Shown: positions 1 to 17,884 of the stretch, in pieces
Position numbering within the stretch: the first letter of the stretch is position 1
Layout: each line of letters begins with the position of its first letter
Virus record (IMG/VR): IMGVR_UViG_3300028612_000679
Coordinates: 1-23,966 of that record
Length of the DNA: 23,966 bases
DNA from: a virus
Reading direction: 5' to 3' (one strand)
Notes under the pieces: generated by a model
What the model saw: only the letters and a program-made list of their open reading frames with translations
Database searches by the model: none
Told to the model about the DNA's origin: nothing
Position numbers and translations under genes: made by a program

Positions 1-392
1 GGGCGTACCGATGGACCGATTATTCGTTCTTTATTTCCTATACACAAAAAATACCTATAAAGTGTGAATCTCATATCTGTGTTAATTAGACTCCCCTTAA
101 TCGGTACGGAGAGTATAGAATCACTATATAAGTTACTGTTTTTATTGCGTACCGATTAGGGACCGATTAGGCCGTACCGATTAGGGACCGATTGCGAACG
201 TACCGATAGATTGGCCAGTCGTAAGCGCCACGCTCTACATGTGTGTTAGCTGGTCAATACAGTGAATCCGGGCCTCCGTACCGATTTCGGCTAATCGGTA
301 CGCAATCGGTACGGCAATCGGTACGCCAAGTTGGACTTGTCATGCCCGAGATCGAGTGATAAGCAGGACGCTTAACAGAAGGACCGATTCGA
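1..392. other. Non-coding control or origin-like region
   Basis: No convincing gene lies in these 392 bases. Positions 20-147 are clearly more AT-rich than the rest of the window, with runs such as ACAAAAAATACCTATAAA and CTATATAAG, like a DNA-unwinding element. The flanks and the right half are packed with CGTACCGAT boxes, described separately. The region ends at an AAGGA ribosome binding site for the gene at 393. I find no clear consensus promoter. TATAGAAT near 114 is a possible -10 but lacks a matching -35. AT-rich DNA beside clustered repeats suggests an iteron-type replication origin. A multi-operator control region is the alternative. The sequence alone cannot separate the two. Confidence 0.6.
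4..325. repeat. Iteron-like array of CGTACCGAT boxes
   Basis: Five direct copies of CGTACCGAT are at 4-12, 148-156, 173-181, 199-207 and 277-285. Four inverted copies (ATCGGTACG) are at 100-108, 294-302, 305-313 and 317-325. Shorter GGACCGAT boxes follow at 13-20, 160-167, 185-192 and 381-388. Positions 148-172 and 173-197 are a near-perfect 25-bp tandem repeat, each unit holding one long and one short box. The boxes at 277-286 and 293-302 form a perfect 10-bp inverted repeat with a 6-base spacer. The last three inverted copies are 11 and 12 bp apart, about one helical turn. This fits cooperative binding of a DNA-binding protein, such as a replication initiator or a repressor. Confidence 0.8.
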
Positions 393-926
393 ATGTTTAA
401 CGCCGATTTGATAGTCTTGCTGCTAGTCAGTATTGTAGCGATAATCCTCGGAACCGCTTTTGCGCGTCAGCGTCATAAGCCGGATCAGTATTGGCTCAAG
501 CGCAACGTCTGCCCACACTGTCGGGCCCGGAAGTTACTTCAGCACACCCCGTTGAGCGACACAGCGTTCGTCACGACATGTCGTAAATGCGAGCAGCAGT
601 GGCACACCCAAGCCACCGACATGCCTGAAGTCCCGCAGATCATAATGCCGATCGGACGACGTAACTGGTATCCCGAGCTGCGGTTCTTCTGGAGCCAGCA
701 GACGCAGAACCCGGTGTTCCAGACGTTCGTCGGTGAAGTCGAATTCGACGCGATCGGTCTTGTCCGGGACCACGGCCTTAACGCCGACACCCCCCGCGAT
801 CTGCTGGCAGCACTGTATCATCATGGGATCGAACCATCTCGTGAAGCATACAACAAGCCGGAATTCGACTATAAGTATTTCATCGAGTCGGCTGGGATCG
901 ACTCGGACGACAGGAAGAAGGACTGA
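393..926 (+). CDS. Membrane-anchored zinc-ribbon protein, unknown function
   Basis: A 177-residue protein of unknown function. Residues 4-23 are a continuous hydrophobic segment (Leu/Ile/Val-rich) followed by Arg and Lys, so it is probably an N-terminal membrane anchor with the rest in the cytoplasm. A CPHC pair near residue 40 and a CRKC pair near residue 63 form a likely zinc ribbon. The C-terminal half is acidic and aromatic-rich, ending in a charged DDRKKD tail. The ATG at 393 has AAGGA nine bases upstream, inside an AGAAGGACCGAT box that resembles the nearby repeats. One dispersed palindrome (530-540) lies in the zinc-ribbon coding region. It is the first gene after the non-coding region. 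Confidence 0.75.
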   Translation: MFNADLIVLLLVSIVAIILGTAFARQRHKPDQYWLKRNVCPHCRARKLLQHTPLSDTAFVTTCRKCEQQWHTQATDMPEVPQIIMPIGRRNWYPELRFFWSQQTQNPVFQTFVGEVEFDAIGLVRDHGLNADTPRDLLAALYHHGIEPSREAYNKPEFDYKYFIESAGIDSDDRKKD

Positions 927-930
927 CACC

Positions 931-1104
931 ATGGCGAAACCGACTACCACCGTCGCCCTGACCAACGAAGACTTATACTGGATTATGGAATGGTCCGGCC
1001 AAGCCGTACCCAGCGGCGAGGACGAGATGTCGCACGAGGAAGCCAAGACCTACCGTAAGCTGCTTCGGGCGCAATCGCGGGTTTACCGCAAGAATAAGGA
1101 CTGA
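931..1104 (+). CDS. Small hypothetical protein (57 aa)
   Basis: Not recognised. The start is the ATG at 931, four bases after the stop of the previous gene, with a GGA-rich stretch (AGGAAGAAGGA) upstream. A longer reading of the frame from 733 would lie inside the previous gene and is rejected. The product is 57 residues: a Thr-rich start, a short aromatic acidic stretch (EDLYWIMEW), and a helical basic C-terminus with several Arg, Lys and Tyr. The start-site context is repeated almost exactly at the next gene, suggesting these small genes arose by local duplication or share a translation signal. Confidence 0.65.
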   Translation: MAKPTTTVALTNEDLYWIMEWSGQAVPSGEDEMSHEEAKTYRKLLRAQSRVYRKNKD

Positions 1105-1108
1105 CACC

Positions 1109-1264
1109 ATGGCGATGACGAAAGCGAACAAGCAGTTTCTCCGGTATTTGGTGAAGAACCATCCGGACAAGAGCGACGAGTACATGGCAGACGAGTGCGA
1201 GTGCGCCCTCACCACTGTCCGTAAGTACCGCAAAAGGCTCAATCCTGAAGGGACCAAGCCATGA
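1109..1264 (+). CDS. Small helix-turn-helix-like protein (51 aa)
   Basis: A 51-residue protein starting at the ATG at 1109, four bases after the previous stop and in the same GACACCATGGCGA context. Residues 9-44 resemble a small helix-turn-helix: KNHPDKSDEYMA as a first helix and turn, then an ALTTVRKYRKRL recognition-like helix. The same segment recurs in the N-terminal half of the protein at 3117-3428, with about 16 of 36 positions identical by eye, including KNHP, DE and TVRKYR. A DNA-binding or adaptor role is inferred. The reading ends in an ATGA overlap with the next gene. It is a candidate reader of the repeat boxes in this region, but no sequence evidence links them. Confidence 0.72.
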   Translation: MAMTKANKQFLRYLVKNHPDKSDEYMADECECALTTVRKYRKRLNPEGTKP

Positions 1265-1458
1265 ACCATATCCCACTACTGAAGGCGCTCGTGCATATCG
1301 CGAGCTATCGGTCTGGCGGCTTGGTCAAGCAGGGAGAGTGCAGCGGCGATCGCAGCGACATGATCCACACGGCCCGGCAGGCGCTTATGGCGCGTTACAA
1401 CACCATCGCTTCGCGGGCCCTCGTAATGGCCGAGCGCGAGATCAGGGAGGCCGAGTGA
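1261..1458 (+). CDS. Small hypothetical protein (65 aa)
   Basis: Not recognised. The ATG at 1261 overlaps the stop of the preceding gene (ATGA), so translation is probably coupled. The 65-residue product is predicted to be mostly helical, with a basic middle and an acidic last helix (MAEREIREAE). There are no membrane segments and no paired cysteines. Its stop overlaps the start of the next gene in the same manner, placing it in a compact early-type cluster of small genes. Confidence 0.65.
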   Translation: MNHIPLLKALVHIASYRSGGLVKQGECSGDRSDMIHTARQALMARYNTIASRALVMAEREIREAE

Positions 1459-1760
1459 TGACGCAGTATGAACGCCAGCAAGTGCCGGTATCGTCGTTGC
1501 AAGATGGCGATGTATTCGAGCTGCCCCGGCGCCGGGACGTCCGCTGCAAGGTAAGCTTCCACAAGCTGATGGATGACGAAGACGGGCGCCGGATCGGCGT
1601 AATCGGCTTCAACATCATCGAAGGATCGCTCGGCAGGCCGTGGATCAGCCTTCCAGCCGACTACCCGATCTGGCTGCTGCTGCCGACGACCACCTACGTT
1701 CATCTCGGCGGCAAGGACTGGATGAACAGCCTGACCGAGCAGCACGGCGTCAAAGACTGA
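1458..1760 (+). CDS. Hypothetical protein, small beta-rich fold (100 aa)
   Basis: The start is the ATG at 1458, within TGATG shared with the stop of the previous gene. A longer reading from 1338 overlaps that gene and lacks a ribosome site. The 100-residue product has alternating hydrophobic stretches (VFELPRR, VRCKVSFHKL, RIGVIGFNII, PIWLLLPTTTYVHLG) that suggest a compact beta-sheet domain. DGDVFELP near residue 17 is a turn-strand pattern common in small SH3-like or nucleotide-handling folds, but I cannot assign a family. Confidence 0.65.
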   Translation: MTQYERQQVPVSSLQDGDVFELPRRRDVRCKVSFHKLMDDEDGRRIGVIGFNIIEGSLGRPWISLPADYPIWLLLPTTTYVHLGGKDWMNSLTEQHGVKD

Positions 1761-1792
1761 TGGCCGTCGTACCACCACCCCGGAGAGACACC

Positions 1793-2899
1793 ATGTCCAC
1801 CCAACCCAAAGCAGCGCCGATAACGTCCGCCTTCGTGTCCGGGTTATCGGACTACCATAGCGCGTACGGATACAGGCACGAGCTGCCTATGCTGTCAGAA
1901 CACGACTGGCGGCGGGGCCTTTTCTGGCGCTGGAACACCTTCGACGTGCAGATCGGCAACGGAGAAGGCGTGATGGCGTGCTATCTGGCGAAACTGCCGT
2001 TCTGGAAGTGGATGACGCGCCTTCTCTTCGAGAAGTACGATCCTGCCGAGTGGCGAAAAGAGACGCGGAAGTCACTTCCGGAGCCAGAGCCCGAGGAATT
2101 CCGCTACCCAGCCGGGCTCGATCTGTCGGCCTTCTGGTTCCGTCTGGACTTCGACGGCAAGAACCCTCGCGATCCGGGCTTCGAGTGGGCTTGGGAGCGC
2201 GATCTGCTGCCGGTCGAAGAAGTCGAGCTGAAGTATGGCCACCCAGCCGGTCTGACGGACTTCAGGATAGACCGAGATGGATACCACTATAAGCAAGACG
2301 GTGCAGATAAGTCGCGGCAGGCGGCTGAAGGCGACGTCACACATACCGAGTGGGACGAATTCATGGCGTCCGAATTCGTTTCCCTGAATGACTTTCTTGC
2401 GTGGAAGAAAGGCGAGATCAAGGACCACAGAGAGCGCCTTCACGACTTCGACGACACGTACGAACGGCCAAGGTGCCGCTGTGGGCGATCCTACACCGAG
2501 CTGAATGTACCAATGGCCAAAGACGGCAGCAGATGGGCGTACAAGAAGAGCTTCTACAAGTGCCTAGACTGCGATCGTAAATGGACGTCCAAGGCTTTGA
2601 GGGCGGCTCTCGACGGATTCCCGATCGACGAGAAGGGTTTGCGCCGCAGGAAGAACCGGGACCGGGGCAGGGGACGCGGCGAGAGCCGACGAGCACAGAA
2701 GCGGCGAACGGAGACGCACGATGTTGTTGAATGCGCTGTGTGCCAGAGCGGGAACACCGCTAAATGCAGTGATTACCAGAAGGCATACGGGGAACAGAAA
2801 CCACGCTTAGGGCTCCGGACTGACAACGAATTAGCGCCCCCGGCGCCGCCTATGCTGTATGGGGACCACAACCCCCCGCCGCATTGCGATTTTCCTTGA
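1793..2899 (+). CDS. Hypothetical protein with two Cys clusters and a basic linker
   Basis: A 368-residue protein from the ATG at 1793, chosen because it repeats the GACACCATG start context of the genes at 931 and 1109. An ATG at 1760 overlapping the previous stop would add 11 residues. The N-terminal 200 residues are rich in Trp, Phe and Asp. A CRCG and CLDC pair about 30 residues apart forms a likely zinc ribbon. A strongly basic Arg/Lys/Gly stretch follows (near DRGRGRGESRR), then a second CAVC...C cluster and a Pro-rich tail. The zinc ribbon beside a basic linker suggests nucleic-acid binding. No enzymatic motif is visible. A perfect 15-bp copy of the dispersed palindrome lies at 2066-2080. 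Confidence 0.7.
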   Translation: MSTQPKAAPITSAFVSGLSDYHSAYGYRHELPMLSEHDWRRGLFWRWNTFDVQIGNGEGVMACYLAKLPFWKWMTRLLFEKYDPAEWRKETRKSLPEPEPEEFRYPAGLDLSAFWFRLDFDGKNPRDPGFEWAWERDLLPVEEVELKYGHPAGLTDFRIDRDGYHYKQDGADKSRQAAEGDVTHTEWDEFMASEFVSLNDFLAWKKGEIKDHRERLHDFDDTYERPRCRCGRSYTELNVPMAKDGSRWAYKKSFYKCLDCDRKWTSKALRAALDGFPIDEKGLRRRKNRDRGRGRGESRRAQKRRTETHDVVECAVCQSGNTAKCSDYQKAYGEQKPRLGLRTDNELAPPAPPMLYGDHNPPPHCDFP

Positions 2900-2916
2900 T
2901 AGGTAGGAGGTAATTT

Positions 2917-3120
2917 ATGACACGGTACGGACGACTCAAGAAGTCACCCCACCCCAGCGTTGTGACGCGGACGATAAACCGATATGCTGCGGCAGTCGAA
3001 GCGAAGGCTTTCGAGGGTACGATCCCGTGGGACTGCGACGAGGCGATCGAGATGCACGAAGAGATCGACAAAGAGCTACAACTGGCCGAGCTGGCGCTAC
3101 GAAGGCTGATAAACCGATGA
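2917..3120 (+). CDS. Small helical protein sharing a module with its neighbour (67 aa)
   Basis: A 67-residue protein with the strongest ribosome site in the window: AGGAGG at 2905-2910, six bases before the ATG. The last 45 residues resemble the C-terminal half of the next protein: Y..AV.A.AF.G, then an acidic helix ending in AE..LR.L.N, with about 18 of 37 aligned positions identical by eye. It lacks the helix-turn-helix half that the neighbour has. The module looks like a helical hairpin that could mediate dimerisation. It shares an ATGA overlap with the next gene. Function unknown. Confidence 0.72.
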   Translation: MTRYGRLKKSPHPSVVTRTINRYAAAVEAKAFEGTIPWDCDEAIEMHEEIDKELQLAELALRRLINR

Positions 3121-3428
3121 AGAAGTCAGACAAAGAGACGCTGATATTCGCGATCAAGAACCACCCGGAGAAAACCGACGAGTGGCTTGCCCGGCTGGCG
3201 AGCTGTTCGATCGACACGGTGCGCAAGTATCGCCGGGTATATGGACAGAGCCGGGCAGAGAAACTGCACAGGACCAAGGCCGAGAAGGCGCTCACGGCCT
3301 ACCGGGAAGCGGTCAAGGCGTACGCGTTCATGGGCTCACAACCGCTCGAAGACCATGACGGAATCGAGGCAGAGCTGCGGGACGCAGAAAACGATCTACG
3401 GGAGCTGCTTAATCTGCCGCCGTGCTAG
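3117..3428 (+). CDS. Two-module helix-turn-helix protein (103 aa)
   Basis: The start is the ATG at 3117, overlapping the upstream stop. Residues 5-42 resemble the whole 51-residue protein at 1109 (shared KNHP, DE, TVRKYR). Residues 60-101 resemble the 67-residue protein at 2917. It therefore looks like a fusion of the two, or their common source. The N-terminal half has the helix-turn-helix look of DNA-binding or terminase-small-like adaptor proteins, with recognition helix SIDTVRKYRRVY. The C-terminal half is an acidic helical hairpin suited to oligomerisation. A regulator or origin-binding role is an inference. It ends convergently, overlapping the minus-strand gene at 3409-3642 by 20 bases. 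Confidence 0.75.
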   Translation: MKKSDKETLIFAIKNHPEKTDEWLARLASCSIDTVRKYRRVYGQSRAEKLHRTKAEKALTAYREAVKAYAFMGSQPLEDHDGIEAELRDAENDLRELLNLPPC

Positions 3429-3642
3429 GGTGCATGTGGGCCTGCCAAGCTGCAATCTCCGGATCAACCGGCTCGATCAGCGGCAGGCCGAGGATCGCCC
3501 GGCTCCAATTACGATCATCGTTTATGCGACGTATCCAGCCCCGGATCACGTCGCCTTTTGCGTTGCGCCTGTATCCGTTGTAGCCATTGCCGTCGTAACG
3601 CCGGTCGATCGGCGGAGGCATTAAGTCAAGTTTCTGCATCAT
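3409..3642 (-). CDS. Small hypothetical protein downstream of primase (77 aa)
   Basis: Not recognised. The ATG at 3642 overlaps the stop of the primase gene (ATGA), so it is probably the last gene of the leftward operon and translationally coupled. The product is 77 residues, basic and Tyr/Gly-rich near residues 14-32 (RRYDGNGYNGYRR), then Trp- and Pro-containing with an acidic stretch. There is no obvious catalytic or metal-binding motif. It meets the rightward gene cluster tail to tail, and I see no hairpin terminator between them. Confidence 0.6.
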   Translation of the reverse strand: MMQKLDLMPPPIDRRYDGNGYNGYRRNAKGDVIRGWIRRINDDRNWSRAILGLPLIEPVDPEIAAWQAHMHPSTAAD

Positions 3643-6149
3643 AGGTCAGAGATATCTACTTCGTCCGGGTCCTGAAGTTGCCCGGCAACCCAAGCCCTTA
3701 TCTTGTCGTTGTCGATCTTGCCGTCCTTGCCCCGGAAGAGCTGGGGCTTCTGCGACCATACGCGGTGATTATCGCCTTTGATCTTCATCCGGCCAAGGTA
3801 CATGAACCCGTGTTCGGACAGCATCTGCTTGAGCAGACGCCCGTAGGGAGCCACACCGCCATGCTCTGCCATCTTCTCGTCGGTCAGGCCGCTACACAGC
3901 AGCTTGTCGCAGAATAGCGGGTCCGTGCTCTCTGACAGGGCCGTCTCGAAGGCTTCTTCTTCTTCGCTCTGATTGAGGAAGATCATCTCGGCCTTCGATG
4001 CCGATATAGGGGCTCTCTTCTTGGGATTAAAGCCCGGCGATATCTCGTATTCGAGCAGCCACTTGCGGATCGCGCCGTCGTGTTTCTCCAAGGCGCCGTA
4101 AAGCCGGTCATAGTAGTGCGGATTAGCTGCCTCGAAAGCCTTGATCGCTGCGTCGGTCTGCCACTTCGAGAACATCGGGTAATACCGCGTGTCGGACTTA
4201 TCGACTGGCATACCGTCCTTGTGGTTTGTCACGAGCAGATAGTTGACCGTGTTGATAACCTTGTACCAGTCAACCCGCATACGCCGAACGGAGGCCATAA
4301 GGTTCGTGATGTAGGGCTTGAGCTTGTTCATCACGTCGAAACGGTTGGCGCCGTGCAGCCTGATCTCTTCGATGAAGCAGAATTGGTGCCCTTCGGCCCA
4401 TGCGGTATTCTTCTCGATCAGGGCTTCGCCCGGCACGGTGTGGACGTTATCGGCCCCGAGCACTGTGCCCATCATCTCATAGAAGAACGTCTTACCGTCG
4501 CCCTGTGTACCTTGGATGATCGGAGCCCAATTCACCCGCTTTCCGGGGTTCTGTACGATGAAGGCGAAGAAATCCAGAAGTAACTTCCGATCTGCCTCGT
4601 GGACGAACATGTGATCGAGATGCCCGAGGACGATCTTGATTGCTGCCTTGTCCGCCTTGGTCAGTTTTTCAGGCACTTCCGGGATACCTATGCCCGTGTA
4701 CATGTTGGCGTAGTCTTCGCCGTTCAAGTTGAAGATCGGCTCTTCGGTCGGCAGGTACATCTTGTTGGCGACAATAGGAATCTGATAGCGGTTCAACGCG
4801 GCTTGGCTGGCAGAGTGCTCGGGCGTCGAGTTGCCTTCCAGCCGGTCCCGCTTCGTCATCATAAACCGGGCGAACGTGGAGTCGAAGGCGATCCGGGTCA
4901 GGCTACGCGACGATTCCAGATTGAAGAACGTCTCGTCTTCCTGCACGTACACGTAGTTGACGAGCCACGGCGGCGTCGTGCGGTTAGCCGGGTCCTCGTA
5001 GCGGACCATCTTGCGGATCGTCGGCACGGACATGGAAACCCCGGCGACTTCCTTCACGCGGGCCTTCAGATCAATGATGATGCCTTCGCGGACGATCTGA
5101 TCGAACGCGATCGTCTTGATACGGTTCATCACGTCGCGGACAGCCGGGAGATCAGGCGCGTTTTCGATCGCCGCCTTCACGTCGTCCAGCTCTTCGTTCG
5201 CGATCCTGTCTTCTTCGAGCTTGGCGTGCTTCAGGATGAACCGGGCCGTGATCGGCTCCCGGCGCTTGCCTTCGATGTTGAACGACTTCCAGCGGTCGTC
5301 CAGTACTTCGGAATCGTACTTCGAGCCTTGCGCGGACCACTCGTGCCACAGCATCAAACCTTCGTCCGAGCCGTCGAATTGGTGGTACAGGGCCATACCA
5401 ATATGGAACCAGATATCGTGATCGTCCACGTCTGGTATCATTTGTAACTTGGCGCGAAGATCGTCCGGGCCGATCTGCACCTTATGCTTATCGGTGATGA
5501 ACGGATCGTCGAAGTCCAGCTCGCGCCCGGACGTCGGGTCGGCCCGTTCGACTCGAGTCATCTTCGACGCCCGTTTCCAACCGCGCTCGCGAGCTATGCG
5601 GTCAAATTCGTCCGCGATCTTCTGCGCCTGCTTCTCGGTGATCGTCGGCAGCTTGTCGATCGGCGTGTTGTGCGGCGCCTTCTTGTCTTTCCAGCGATAC
5701 GGTTGCTCGGTATCCGGGTGGACGTGGAACGCGACAAACTGCTGGCCGTCCCCGAGTACTTCGAGCTTGACCGAGCGGCCTTCGTCATCTTCGTACCGGG
5801 TGGACTGGACCTTGCGGAATGGCTTCTCTGCCCGGTAAACGAGCAGCATTTTCGGCGGCTGACCGACACGCTCGATCGTCTCGCCAAGCATCTCGACGGT
5901 GAATTCCCGCATGTGCTCGACGATATCGGAGTCGTAGCAGTCGATATCGACGCCCGGCGTCTTCTTCGTCTTGATCCCTACGCCGAAGTTGCCCCGGCCC
6001 TTGCGGATCGCGGCGTCCACACGCTTCGGCCCGTGGACGGTCGTCTCCCACTCTTTGCCGAACGGACGCTTTTCGCCGGGACGGATGAAGCAGATCGAGT
6101 AACCGGAATCGAGGGACGCTTGCCCATATTTCTTGAGATATGCGACCAC
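3639..6149 (-). CDS. Bifunctional primase-polymerase / superfamily 3 helicase
   Basis: An 836-residue replication protein expected to prime and unwind phage DNA. The N-terminal prim-pol domain (about residues 1-190) shows the catalytic acidic motif GVDIDCYD at 66-73 and the downstream GDGQQFVAFHVHP motif at 133-145. A helical middle region near 228-310 resembles a PriCT-like domain. The C-terminal ATPase (about 500-700) belongs to the D5/DUF5906 type: Walker A GTQGDGKT at 547-554, Walker B QFCFIEEI near 589-596, and a sensor-like NYLLVTNHKD at 636-645. The GTG at 6149 lies three bases after the regulator stop. Unlike most replication genes here it is on the minus strand, behind its own regulator. 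One dispersed palindrome is at 4577-4587. Confidence 0.93.
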   Translation of the reverse strand: MVAYLKKYGQASLDSGYSICFIRPGEKRPFGKEWETTVHGPKRVDAAIRKGRGNFGVGIKTKKTPGVDIDCYDSDIVEHMREFTVEMLGETIERVGQPPKMLLVYRAEKPFRKVQSTRYEDDEGRSVKLEVLGDGQQFVAFHVHPDTEQPYRWKDKKAPHNTPIDKLPTITEKQAQKIADEFDRIARERGWKRASKMTRVERADPTSGRELDFDDPFITDKHKVQIGPDDLRAKLQMIPDVDDHDIWFHIGMALYHQFDGSDEGLMLWHEWSAQGSKYDSEVLDDRWKSFNIEGKRREPITARFILKHAKLEEDRIANEELDDVKAAIENAPDLPAVRDVMNRIKTIAFDQIVREGIIIDLKARVKEVAGVSMSVPTIRKMVRYEDPANRTTPPWLVNYVYVQEDETFFNLESSRSLTRIAFDSTFARFMMTKRDRLEGNSTPEHSASQAALNRYQIPIVANKMYLPTEEPIFNLNGEDYANMYTGIGIPEVPEKLTKADKAAIKIVLGHLDHMFVHEADRKLLLDFFAFIVQNPGKRVNWAPIIQGTQGDGKTFFYEMMGTVLGADNVHTVPGEALIEKNTAWAEGHQFCFIEEIRLHGANRFDVMNKLKPYITNLMASVRRMRVDWYKVINTVNYLLVTNHKDGMPVDKSDTRYYPMFSKWQTDAAIKAFEAANPHYYDRLYGALEKHDGAIRKWLLEYEISPGFNPKKRAPISASKAEMIFLNQSEEEEAFETALSESTDPLFCDKLLCSGLTDEKMAEHGGVAPYGRLLKQMLSEHGFMYLGRMKIKGDNHRVWSQKPQLFRGKDGKIDNDKIRAWVAGQLQDPDEVDISDL

Positions 6150-6152
6150 GGG

Positions 6153-6434
6153 TTACTCGCTATAGAGATTGGGGTGGAACAGCTCGCGGGGGAAACACTC
6201 TTTGCCCAACGTGCGCTCGATCTCAATAGCGGTTTCCGGTGATACGCGTCCCCTCATTTTCATTAGTGCGAAAGCATTGGCTGACATGCCGATAGCTTCG
6301 GCCAAGTCTGATAGCTTGGCATTACGGCTGTGGAAAACACAGGCAAGGTTCAACAGATAACGGTGTCGGTCGGTTTCGTCAGTGTCGCCATCCAGCCAGT
6401 CCGGCTGCGGCCACGGGCCTGTGCTCGCGGTCAT
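6153..6434 (-). CDS. Cro/YdaS-like helix-turn-helix regulator
   Basis: A 93-residue protein whose residues 41-85 look like the Cro/YdaS class of helix-turn-helix proteins: LSDLAEAIGMSANAFALMKM, then RVSPETAIEIERTLG and the typical ending PRELFHPNL. It is expected to bind an operator as a dimer. It is the first gene of the leftward operon with the primase. Its upstream region holds a perfect 16-bp palindrome overlapping its own -35 box, which fits autoregulation and control of the divergent genes. The first 30 residues are acidic and Trp/Asp-rich and do not belong to the DNA-binding fold. It could act as a Cro-type switch, but no partner repressor is visible here. Confidence 0.8.
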   Translation of the reverse strand: MTASTGPWPQPDWLDGDTDETDRHRYLLNLACVFHSRNAKLSDLAEAIGMSANAFALMKMRGRVSPETAIEIERTLGKECFPRELFHPNLYSE

Positions 6435-6461
6435 ATCGGTCCCTCGAAATAGAAGATCGGC

Positions 6462-6490
6462 GTATTAACCTTCTGACATGATGATGTCAA
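6462..6490 (-). promoter_or_regulatory. Predicted sigma70-type promoter for the primase operon
   Basis: On the minus strand a perfect TTGACA (6490-6485) is followed, after 17 bases, by TAATAC (6467-6462). The regulator start codon lies about 28 bases downstream of the -10. The -35 shares bases with the palindromic operator, so a bound regulator would block RNA polymerase. Confidence 0.6.
6474..6489. promoter_or_regulatory. Palindromic operator TGACAT-GATG-ATGTCA
   Basis: A perfect 6-bp inverted repeat with a 4-base spacer in the divergent intergenic region. It overlaps the -35 and spacer of the leftward promoter and sits 15 bases from the rightward -35. Its position next to a helix-turn-helix gene is the usual arrangement for an autoregulated phage switch. 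Binding by that regulator is an inference. Confidence 0.6.
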
Positions 6491-6504
6491 ACCTGAAATA
6501 CCCA

Positions 6505-6533
6505 TTGACAGGGAACATAAGGGGGCCTAGTAG
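6505..6533 (+). promoter_or_regulatory. Predicted sigma70-type promoter for the rightward block
   Basis: A perfect TTGACA at 6505-6510 is followed, after 17 bases, by TAGTAG at 6528-6533, a poor -10. Transcription would start near 6540 and read into the gene at 6583. The strong -35 with a weak -10 could mean that an activator is needed, or that the -35 is accidental. Confidence 0.5.
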
Positions 6534-6582
6534 CCATCGCTCCCAATTCAGGGACCGAAACCGTAAACGAAGGATCGAATAG

Positions 6583-6981
6583 ATGCTCGAAGAGAAAGTC
6601 GAAACACTCACCACCGAAATCGTTAGCCTGCGCAAGACGCTCGAAAAGGCGTTGCCGGGCCTGATGGCTGGCGGTGCGGCGACTGAAGCAGACGCGGAAG
6701 AAAAGACCGCGAAGAAGGCTCCGGCCAAGAAGGCCCCGGCCAAGAAGGCCCGGGCCAAGAAGAAGGTCGAGCCCGAGCACGATGCGGACGAAGTTGCCGC
6801 CATCATGCGCAAGGCGGCGAAGGAAGTCGATAAGCAGGCCGTGATGGACTACATCTCGGAACAGGACTGCGAAGACCTTGCTGACCTTCTGACCAAGCCC
6901 GAGCTGTTCGACGGCGCCTACGCGTTCGCTGAAGGCCAGCTTGGCGAAGACGAAGAAGAAACCGAAGACGACGATATCTAA
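6583..6981 (+). CDS. H1-like Lys/Ala-rich protein with acidic tail
   Basis: A 132-residue protein with four parts: an N-terminal heptad-like helix (LEEKVETLTTEIVSLRKTLEKAL, residues 2-24), an Ala/Lys/Pro-repeat basic stretch (about 43-63) like a histone H1 or AlgP tail, a helical middle (70-117), and a strongly acidic C-terminus ending EETEDDDI. The ATG has GAAGGA eight bases upstream. It is the first gene after the divergent promoter. The coiled coil plus basic repeat suggests a DNA-binding oligomer. The acidic end resembles tails of single-strand DNA-binding proteins that recruit replication partners. No specific family is recognised. Confidence 0.72.
   Translation: MLEEKVETLTTEIVSLRKTLEKALPGLMAGGAATEADAEEKTAKKAPAKKAPAKKARAKKKVEPEHDADEVAAIMRKAAKEVDKQAVMDYISEQDCEDLADLLTKPELFDGAYAFAEGQLGEDEEETEDDDI
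6712..6756 (+). repeat. 15-bp tandem repeat (three copies) encoding KKAPA
   Basis: Three tandem copies of AAGAAGGCCCCGGCC at 6712-6726, 6727-6741 and 6742-6756, differing at one base each, followed by a partial AAGAAG. They encode KKAPA, KKAPA and KKARA. Such in-frame repeats expand or shrink by slippage, so the length may vary among related phages. Confidence 0.85.
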
Positions 6982-6990
6982 TCTCGTCTT

Positions 6991-7089
6991 AGCAGCGGCG
7001 TTGCCTTTGCGCTGCTGCGGCCAGACCGCCCATCGGTCTAGGCTGGAACAAGGCCCCCGGAGCTGTTCATGGTGCGGCGTCCGGGGGCC
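6991..7089 (+). other. Three consecutive stem-loops in an intergenic region
   Basis: The gap between the genes at 6583 and 7138 holds three hairpins in series: AGCAGCG/CGCTGCT (6991-6997 with 7010-7016), AGACCG/CGGTCT with a 5-base loop (7023-7028 with 7034-7039), and a perfect 10-bp GGCCCCCGGA/TCCGGGGGCC (7052-7061 with 7080-7089). No T-run follows the last stem, so a simple intrinsic terminator is not well supported. It may be a structured RNA, an RNA processing site, or an attenuator-like element limiting transcription into the next genes. Confidence 0.55.
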
Positions 7090-7137
7090 CAAAGGCCAGA
7101 TTGAGAAGCGAGAACAGCAATGCTCGGAGAATCGAAG

Positions 7138-7548
7138 ATGTCGCTCGGATACGTACGCGGAAACACATGGGTCGTTGACGAGCACTTCAAGGCTTGGAGC
7201 GAATCCGACACGTATCAGACAATGGTTCAAGTCGCTGCCCGGCAAGGGTTCCACTGGACTATCGAGTATTCGTACAGCGCCCGGCGCTACACATGCGACA
7301 TCAATACGATCCGCCAGACCGGCCCGAGCCAGTACCAGATCATCTTGCAGGCCAATGCTTTCGATGCACACCCGATGCTCGCATTGGTTAAGGCGATCCG
7401 ACGCTACAATATCCTTACCCCTTTTATTACTGTCCTGCTGATCGAGCTTGAGTGCCACGTGCTGCGTCAGAAGTTACTTCCGATGCGCCGTTTGGAGAGT
7501 GAGCTTGAGAAGCTGGCGGACGCAATCACGATCGGCATGTTGAAGTGA
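7138..7548 (+). CDS. Hypothetical protein (136 aa)
   Basis: Not recognised. The ATG at 7138 is preferred because GGAGA lies seven bases upstream. An ATG at 7120 would add six residues but has a poorer ribosome site. The product is alternately hydrophobic and aromatic in the first 80 residues (YVRGNTWVVDEHF, HWTIEYSYSARRYTCDI), then has a hydrophobic helix (ILTPFITVLLIELECHVL) too polar to be a certain membrane segment, then a charged helix. A dispersed palindrome (7470-7480) encodes QKLLP near the C-terminus. Its stop overlaps the GTG start of the next gene, implying coupling. Confidence 0.65.
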   Translation: MSLGYVRGNTWVVDEHFKAWSESDTYQTMVQVAARQGFHWTIEYSYSARRYTCDINTIRQTGPSQYQIILQANAFDAHPMLALVKAIRRYNILTPFITVLLIELECHVLRQKLLPMRRLESELEKLADAITIGMLK

Positions 7549-8387
7549 GTCGGAGGAACCGCCCTGTTTACGTTATTTCGCTATCCGGTGGGCTCGCCTC
7601 TGCCGCCAGCGCAATTATCGCGCACGAGATGGGGTTGGACTTTCGTATGGTGTTTGCCGACACTCTTATCGAGCACCCGGACTTGTATAGGTTCGTTGAA
7701 GAGCTTTCTGAAGCTTTGCAGACGCCGTATGTCCATTTGATTGACGGGCGGGACCCGTGGGAAGTCTTCGTTGATCGTGGTTTCTTCGGCAACTCTCGAA
7801 CTGCGCATTGCTCTAAAGACTTAAAAACGGCGAAAGTTGCCGAATGGATGGAGGCTAAAGTCTTTCACTTCGATCCGCTTGTGCTCGGCATGTACAAGGA
7901 CGAAGAAGACAGATTGGACCGCGCAAGAGCAAACTGGTCGCCGCAGCAAGTGACTTCACTTTTGATAGAGCAGAAAGTCACGCCCGGCGAGGCGGACAAA
8001 CTGGTTCGTAAATACGTCCCGCAGCGCCCGGCGCTCTACGACATGGGATTTGTTCATAACAACTGCGGGGGAATGTGTGTTCGCGCCGGTCAAGGGCAGT
8101 TTGCTCACCTATTGAAAACCCGTCCTGAATTCTATTGGCAACAAGCCGAGAGAAACGAGTGGGCCAGAGGGGAAATCGAGAAGCGGGTTGACGATCGAAT
8201 CAGTCGAGGCGTCTATAAAGGTGATGCAGACGAAGTCCCTTCGGGCGGGTTCATTCGTGTGCAGAAGGATTATGAGATTGAGTATCTGCACATGAAAGAA
8301 TTCGCAGAGAGGGTGTTATCTGGTGAGCTGGACCCGCCTTCGTACGAAGTCGGTGGCTGCGGTTGTTTTGTGGATGATGAATTGTGA
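7545..8387 (+). CDS. PAPS-reductase-like PP-loop (adenine nucleotide alpha hydrolase) protein
   Basis: A 280-residue protein of the phosphoadenosine-phosphosulfate reductase / PP-loop superfamily. The nucleotide-binding loop SGGLASA is at residues 14-20, followed by the usual strand-helix pattern (FRMVFADTLIEHPDLYRFVEEL). Cysteines at 89 (HCSK) and 174/178 (CGGMC), plus CGC near the C-terminus, could hold a metal or Fe-S centre or a thiol relay. The GTG start at 7545 overlaps the upstream stop (GTGA), and the gene ends the same way. Phage members are poorly understood. Roles in sulfur transfer to DNA or RNA, or in sulfate reduction, are possible. Codons are less GC-rich than in neighbouring genes, hinting at separate acquisition. 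The exact reaction cannot be told from sequence. Confidence 0.82.
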   Translation: MSRRNRPVYVISLSGGLASAASAIIAHEMGLDFRMVFADTLIEHPDLYRFVEELSEALQTPYVHLIDGRDPWEVFVDRGFFGNSRTAHCSKDLKTAKVAEWMEAKVFHFDPLVLGMYKDEEDRLDRARANWSPQQVTSLLIEQKVTPGEADKLVRKYVPQRPALYDMGFVHNNCGGMCVRAGQGQFAHLLKTRPEFYWQQAERNEWARGEIEKRVDDRISRGVYKGDADEVPSGGFIRVQKDYEIEYLHMKEFAERVLSGELDPPSYEVGGCGCFVDDEL

Positions 8388-12909: not shown

Positions 12910-13181
12910 TAGTGCGGGACCACAGGTATCACGGGTTCGAGAACCACGAGGACGAACGATTAGACGAGACATGCTACATCTGCAACGGCGGATTGGCAGT
13001 GTGCGAAGTTTGCAAGGCGGGCGAGTGCGAGCTTCCGGAAGAGTGCCCCGGACGAGCTATGACTGCGGAAGAGCGAGAGCTTATATGCCAAGGCGATCTT
13101 GAATTCTATCTCGGGTGTTGGTGGCACAAAGGCGAAATCGTCTGGACGGATAAACTAGGAACGAAGGTAGCGTACCGATGA
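12906..13181 (+). CDS. Small Cys-rich protein (91 aa)
   Basis: A 91-residue protein with eight cysteines: CYIC near residue 23, CEVC near 33, then C at about 40, 47, 61 and 71. It has the look of a double zinc-binding phage protein. The TTG at 12906 overlaps the preceding stop (TTGA), matching the coupling seen in this cluster. A GTG at 12912 is the alternative. It ends in an ATGA overlap with the methyltransferase gene, and its last codons contain an isolated CGTACCGAT box (13171-13179) like those of the left-end array. Function unknown. Confidence 0.68.
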   Translation: MIVRDHRYHGFENHEDERLDETCYICNGGLAVCEVCKAGECELPEECPGRAMTAEERELICQGDLEFYLGCWWHKGEIVWTDKLGTKVAYR

Positions 13182-17188: not shown

Positions 17189-17884
17189 ATGGCGCTTCGA
17201 GCTAACAAACAATCGAAACTGGATGACACCCGGCCTCGTCGCGGGCGCCCGCCTAAGTCCGGCGAAGTAACTTCCGAGATAGTCGATAGCGGCTGCGCCA
17301 CCATGACGCAGATCGCACAGATGTTTCGCACGGATACCAAGACGCTCCCCAAGAGGATGCGTGGTATCCAGTCGGCAGGCAAGAACAAGAAGGGTTACAC
17401 GGTCTATTCGATCGCGGAAGCCGCCACGCGCATTGTCCGTCCCGGCTATGAGATGGAAGAGTATATCCGGCAGATGTCTCCGCAAGAGCTGCCGCCGCTA
17501 CTCTCGAAGGAATTCTGGAACGGGCAGAACGCTCGTATCAAATTCGAGGAACAGATGGGGCGCCTGTGGCCGACTGATCGCGTGGTCGAATGCTTCGGTG
17601 CCGGGCTCTCTGCTTTGCGTATGGCTATCCTGCTGGTAAAGGATGGCGTCGAGCGCGAAGAGCAGCTTACCCAAGCACAGCGTGACGCAGTACAACGATT
17701 TATGGACGCGGCGATCAATGACGCCCGCGAATCCGTTATGGAAAAGATGAAGGAATTCGACTGTGCTTACGAGCTTGAAGACGACGGGGGAATTCAAGGA
17801 CTCGAAGGGCCGGACGATCGAGCCGGTGACGACGGAAACCTTCTTGCGTCCGAGGACGACGAAGAAGAAGATATCGGGATATGA
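17189..17884 (+). CDS. Terminase small subunit (DUF1441-like)
   Basis: A 231-residue packaging protein. An Arg/Pro-rich N-terminus (TRPRRGRPPKSGE) precedes a helix-turn-helix like that of lambda Nu1 and the DUF1441 family (MTQIAQMFRTDTKTLPKRMRGI, about 38-60), then the YSIAEAA segment. The middle and C-terminal helices suggest oligomerisation and binding to the large subunit. The last 20 residues are strongly acidic (EDDEEEDIGI). It would recognise the packaging site and recruit the large subunit. The ATG has AGGA seven bases upstream. Its 3' end overlaps the large-subunit frame by up to 122 bases. A dispersed palindrome is at 17264-17274. Confidence 0.82.
   Translation: MALRANKQSKLDDTRPRRGRPPKSGEVTSEIVDSGCATMTQIAQMFRTDTKTLPKRMRGIQSAGKNKKGYTVYSIAEAATRIVRPGYEMEEYIRQMSPQELPPLLSKEFWNGQNARIKFEEQMGRLWPTDRVVECFGAGLSALRMAILLVKDGVEREEQLTQAQRDAVQRFMDAAINDARESVMEKMKEFDCAYELEDDGGIQGLEGPDDRAGDDGNLLASEDDEEEDIGI

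Follow-up and report, generated by a model that had tools for sequence, protein, structure and literature searches.

A repeat array beside cos in Casjensviridae phages is a probable replication origin with the phage primase-helicase as its proposed reader

The window analysed here is a whole virus record of 23,966 bases and represents the start of a contig from a Casjensviridae-type (Chi/BcepNazgul-like) phage. Its replication and packaging genes are syntenic with those of this family (primase, gp3, DUF2800 exonuclease, Enc34-type SSB, PolA, VRR-NUC, helicase, terminase and portal). Erythrobacter phages R16L and R22L match it at the DNA level with about 77% identity over 40% of bases 1–8000, and their proteins are 87% (polymerase) and about 79% (primase) identical to those of the window; BcepNazgul, AH2, Chi and other Casjensviridae are more distant relatives. 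We found no tRNA or Rfam match, and none of the tested window proteins was a typical plasmid Rep. The features relevant to the array at the left end are as follows.

4–20, + strand: CGTACCGAT box (4–12) followed immediately by a GGACCGAT box (13–20)
21–147, unstranded: AT-rich stretch (by composition) between box groups, with one reverse box inside; candidate unwinding element
100–108, − strand: CGTACCGAT box
148–207, + strand: box cluster, CGTACCGAT at 148, 173 and 199 alternating with GGACCGAT at 160 and 185; 25-bp tandem
277–325, both orientations: box cluster, CGTACCGAT at 277 (+) and 294, 305 and 317 (−), with 11–12 bp spacing and a 10-bp inverted repeat
381–388, + strand: outlying GGACCGAT box that overlaps the Shine-Dalgarno region of the first gene (393); R16L keeps the CTTAACAGAAGGACCGATTCG around it
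393–926, + strand: first gene right of the array, with a membrane segment and a zinc-ribbon-like motif; about 31–33% identity to the syntenic R16L/R22L gene
3639–6149, − strand: proposed initiator, PrimPol + PriCT_2 + SF3-type helicase (DUF5906)
3750–4001, − strand: its C-terminal winged-helix domain (predicted; residues about 717–800), the proposed box reader
6153–6434, − strand: small HTH protein of the gp3 type, encoded upstream of the primase (PHROG 7401, as Chi gp3), with a GGGACCGAT box immediately before its ATG
17189–17884, + strand: small terminase subunit (DUF1441, PHROG 141)

The repeat content given in a preliminary description of this DNA held up almost entirely. Nine exact copies of the 9-mer CGTACCGAT lie in two orientations, at 4, 148, 173, 199 and 277 (+) and at 100, 294, 305 and 317 (−), and the single further exact copy in the window, at 13171, falls within coding DNA. 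The most frequent 9-mer of bases 1–400 has 9 copies, compared with a maximum of 4 in 2,000 first-order Markov shuffles. The 25-bp tandem (148–168 identical to 173–193), the 10-bp inverted repeat (277–286 and 293–302), the 11- and 12-bp box spacings and the AT-rich stretch (about 21–147) are all present, and the region is non-coding as claimed, with no open reading frame of at least 50 amino acids before the first gene start at 393. Of the four GGACCGAT boxes assigned to positions 4–325, three (13, 160 and 185) lie in that span and the fourth (381) lies outside it. GC skew, proposed in the same description as a check, gave no signal and was uninformative. The locus therefore has two features of an iteron origin, a cluster of repeated boxes in non-coding DNA and an adjoining region that is AT-rich by composition.

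The array probably lies beside the cohesive end site. Chi has 12-base cohesive ends, 5'-GGTGCGCAGAGC (PMC4342425), a 12-bp cos has been measured for AH2 (PMC3483164), and cos overhangs are annotated in the BcepNazgul record. The R16L record ends in CGCAGAGCCGC, which resembles the Chi cos GGTGCGCAGAGC. Alignment to R16L indicates that base 1 of the window falls inside the array region and that cos and one more box lie further left, outside the window; with the first boxes aligned, cos would lie about 165 bp left of base 1. Comparable arrays in relatives are non-coding, lie no more than about 650 bp from cos, towards the primase, and surround AT-rich DNA, the centre of which is a median of 282 bp from cos in the related loci. 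On the other side of cos, R16L has a non-coding, GC-rich region (record positions 1–570; L013:1–570) packed with CGCCAGCC/GGCTGGCG repeats; a GC-rich stretch of this type was not seen in BcepNazgul.

We then surveyed 72 loci, each containing a primase and either a cos or a contig end that could be identified. Arrays were clearly above shuffles in 52 of them, and the remaining 20 had no significant array by this method. After removal of near-duplicates, the median array has eight boxes over 343 bp. Both box orientations occur in every array that exceeds its own shuffles by two or more (55 of 55), and same-orientation neighbours are mostly 8–13 bp apart, with 9 or 11–12 bp the commonest distances. 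The word itself differs: CGTACCGATT in the window is replaced at the same place by GGAACCGATT in R16L and R22L, and AGGTCCGAAT, AGGTTACAA and GTGACAGT occur in other relatives. In the cos-proximal region of ten other phages, most have boxes in two orientations around AT-rich DNA, with a group-specific word; in FoX4 and Carli the array is weak or absent by box counts. Thus, where the preliminary description had looked to conservation of the boxes in related phages, place and general layout are kept and the word varies from phage to phage. By our own reading, many words appear to fit a skeleton like AGGnnnCnnA (AGGTCCGAAT, AGGAACCGATT, AGGTTACAAA, AGGTAACAGAT and AGGGGCACGATC). A search for the same words in unrelated viral contigs returned many matches, which were unconnected.

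A gene start lies just right of the array in both the window and Chi, as would be expected if a phage repressor or activator bound the boxes and controlled the early genes from 393. In the window, GGACCGAT boxes at 381, 6435 and 16341 also immediately precede three genes (that at 393, gp3 at 6434 and a small, zinc-finger-like ORF at about 16353) and overlap their start regions, which suggests that the box reader may additionally regulate these three genes. However, the BcepNazgul array sits between two gene 3' ends, those of gene 01 and the primase; no flanking start is there to be controlled, which makes a general operator role unlikely. In AH2 too, the array is adjoined by the primase 3' end and not by a gene start. 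No sigma-70-like site was found in the array, and the candidate regulators fare poorly: gp3 varies little or not at all between phages whose boxes differ, and neither BcepNazgul nor AH2 has a counterpart of Chi gp1 next to the array, for which reason gp1 was also rejected as a reader. We also rejected the boxes as a general gp3–primase autoregulatory operator, as a box-like match upstream of gp3 was present in just 8 of 47 phages (p < 0.05); for the window only, such autoregulation is suggestive. The operator array raised as an alternative in the preliminary description is therefore disfavoured, and we consider it improbable.

The protein that we propose as initiator, the primase encoded at 3639–6149, matches the Pfam families Prim-Pol (PF09250), PriCT_2 and DUF5906, its profile matches pRN1 ORF904 and the NrS-1 primase, and its predicted structure matches the NrS-1 fold. 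In an AlphaFold2 model (mean pLDDT 88, 56 sequences) the C-terminus consists of helices at residues 729–740, 753–761 and 771–779 followed by a hairpin of strands at 783–790 and 793–799, so that residues 729–799 are predicted to adopt a winged-helix layout. PrimPol, SF3 helicase and predicted winged helix are thus combined in one protein, as in the pRN1 type. A C-terminal winged helix on a primase-helicase, here from predicted structure, is also a feature of the P4 type; the Toprim primase of that type is absent, with PrimPol PF09250 in its stead. In one related locus (L215, 8001–10456) the primase is interrupted, its open frame stopping about 540 residues in.

To identify the box reader, we compared phages that are closely related and have different boxes. 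Chi and SP-030 have GGTTACAA and GGTAACAG, respectively; notable divergence between them is confined to gp1 (37% identity), the primase (81%) and gp3 (86%), whereas the small terminase is 99.5% and the large terminase 98% identical, and identity is 94–99.5% for the remaining replication and packaging proteins that were compared. Between L222 and L228, two loci with different boxes, gp3 shows 100% identity and the primase does not differ up to about residue 550, but identity is down to 73–80% over residues 751–844. The same C-terminal divergence is found in L266/L269 and L278/L279, where boxes differ, and not in L266/L272 and L241/AhaSv, which share a box. Across different-box sisters (L222/L228, L266/L269, L278/L279 and L216/L223) the C-terminus is 18–31 points less conserved than the rest of the primase, versus a deficit of at most 9 points in same-box sister pairs. 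With one pair per clade, the four different-box and seven same-box pairs separate completely, a 1 in 330 chance if the pairs are independent. In 70 pairs whose primases are at least 60% identical over residues 1–690, box similarity had its highest partial correlation with primase residues 701–836 (r = 0.51–0.52), followed by residues 561–630 (0.44), with other segments at 0.44 or below.

A limit on these comparisons is linkage. The primase 3' end adjoins the array in most informative pairs, so one recombination event can swap both, and co-variation alone is no proof of recognition. Indeed, DNA comparison of L222 and L228 places the exchange from within the primase 3' end across the array, stopping before cos, with the parts compared elsewhere mostly 83–98% identical. 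Among the informative pairs, L278/L279 alone has a gene between primase and array, and that gene changed too; in L271 the array is 2 kb from the primase, and this locus has no sufficiently close sister for a linkage-free comparison. When single primase columns were compared with boxes family-wide, no column was significant and the winged helix was not singled out. What co-variation does exclude, on the sequences compared, is unchanged proteins as strict box readers. A family-wide Mantel test ranked gp3 (Cro-like) above the primase, but this is contradicted by the close pairs, and gp3 as reader is ruled out by L222/L228 and L266/L269, given its identity or near identity between phages with different boxes. 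A candidate initiator encoded in the same genome and co-varying with the boxes, a further feature of iteron origins, is accordingly present subject to this linkage.

The same comparisons bear on packaging. Boxes bound by the small terminase in the manner of lambda cosB could initiate cutting at the nearby cos, and the array does resemble cosB in having repeated sites near cos, within about 650 bp. Relative to the structural genes, lambda cosB lies on a side comparable to that of the array. In contrast to cosB, however, the boxes change without change in the small terminase, which we rejected as reader because it is 99.5% identical between Chi and SP-030 (large terminase 98%) despite their different boxes; boxes and small terminase do not co-vary, and a partial Mantel test of TerS given the primase was not significant. 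A packaging-like signature is, moreover, kept beyond cos, on the side opposite the array, while the boxes vary. There, GGCTC(A/T)GCG is followed after 37–39 bp by GGGACC in 15 of 24 related loci, and AGTACC lies near this distance in most of the remaining loci; the signature is seen in L222 and L228, for example. We regard it as a candidate terminase recognition signature, and a packaging role for the array itself as very improbable.

We conclude that the array is, with high probability, a replication origin whose boxes would be read by the phage's own PrimPol-SF3 helicase through its C-terminal winged helix. This function is best supported because the array is conserved beside cos family-wide and its boxes co-vary with the winged helix. 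The origin suggested in the preliminary description thus gains in strength, and the plasmid-like phase attached to it is without support. Copies of the primase-helicase (3639–6149, − strand) would bind the CGTACCGATT-type boxes through the winged helix and build rings, in the two orientations, about the AT-rich DNA. They would then melt this DNA and make the first primers, and the phage's own family-A DNA polymerase, SSB and helicase would carry the forks onward; binding, melting, priming and the direction of replication at the array are all inferred.

By analogy, the best reading is an origin that operates in the manner of P4 ori (P4 being a satellite phage) and uses an initiator of the pRN1 type. 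In P4, the alpha protein attaches to the origin repeats through a winged-helix domain, and pRN1-type proteins also carry one (PMC4234260, which for P4 cites Ziegelin and Lanka 1995 and Yeo 2002). As in P4, short repeats would be read by a phage-encoded primase-helicase with a winged helix; unlike P4, which has a bacterial-type Toprim primase, the window phage has the archaeo-eukaryotic PrimPol type, and its array stands beside cos. With pRN1 ORF904 and BIP-1-type phages the protein shares PrimPol, helical/PriCT_2, SF3 helicase and C-terminal winged-helix domains, and an origin 3' of the initiator gene (PMC4234260; proposed in the window). Those origins are proposed to be large stem-loops without iterons, whereas the window has an iteron-like array with a phage-specific word. 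Plasmid iteron origins and ori-lambda similarly place repeated boxes beside AT-rich DNA, with the (proposed) initiator in the same genome. The differences from plasmid iteron origins are that the window proteins tested include no typical Rep, that the proposed initiator combines primase and helicase in itself, and that the boxes in Casjensviridae arrays run in both orientations.

The PrimPol-SF3-winged-helix initiators have been proposed to recognize stem-loops rather than repeats (PMC4234260). If this held here, as for pRN1 and phage BIP-1, the inverted boxes would be hairpins recognized by shape and not by word. The array strand does fold more strongly than its shuffles (z = −4.1), a result that inverted boxes lead one to expect, and both the domain set and the position 3' of the initiator gene agree with this proposal. 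Yet each phage keeps its box word closely in direct and inverted copies alike, the words co-vary with the winged helix, and orientation patterns vary between phages, so that no common stem-loop is evident. We consider a stem-loop origin very improbable.

A repeat-reading origin, if right, would run counter to that proposal. For the phage family as a whole, it would predict where replication starts, which protein initiates it and which domain sets the specificity, and dozens of naturally occurring domain/word pairs would then help in working out how the DNA word of a winged helix can change. The hosts of Chi-like phages include many Gram-negative bacteria, and many genomes of these phages are sequenced. 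We found no replication origin for Casjensviridae in the literature searched, the scope of which excluded subscription papers and preprints; the word 'repeat' is absent from the text of the AH2 paper (PMC3483164), and the Chi genome announcement mentions no repeats (PMC4342425). Array and reader may further form a swappable 'origin plus reading head' cassette, in which the array and the last ~100 primase-helicase codons are exchanged together between close relatives with near-identical other replication genes, giving many mutually incompatible origin types. We hold this idea tentatively, at slightly less than even chances. If true, one PrimPol-SF3 protein alone would fire an iteron origin, and competition with co-infecting relatives or satellites may have driven the diversity of origin types.

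Separately from the array, the palindrome GAAGTNACTTC recurs in these genomes: the window has 12 copies, and R16L and R22L have 25 apiece.

GAAGTNACTTC sites in the window: 530, 2068, 4577, 7470, 9400, 10513, 13193, 13912, 14743, 17264, 18631, 21345

Their spacing, about 0.7–7 kb, is more even than random. In R16L, 8 of 25 copies are intergenic (6.8% expected), with a median of 38 bp to a gene boundary. BcepNazgul has 12 copies in 45 kb and Chi has none; in L203, L208 and L210, GAAATNATTTC seems to take the place of GAAGTNACTTC. A ParB-like protein (R16L ORF_23, PHROG 1033) is a possible candidate for the binder of GAAGTNACTTC.
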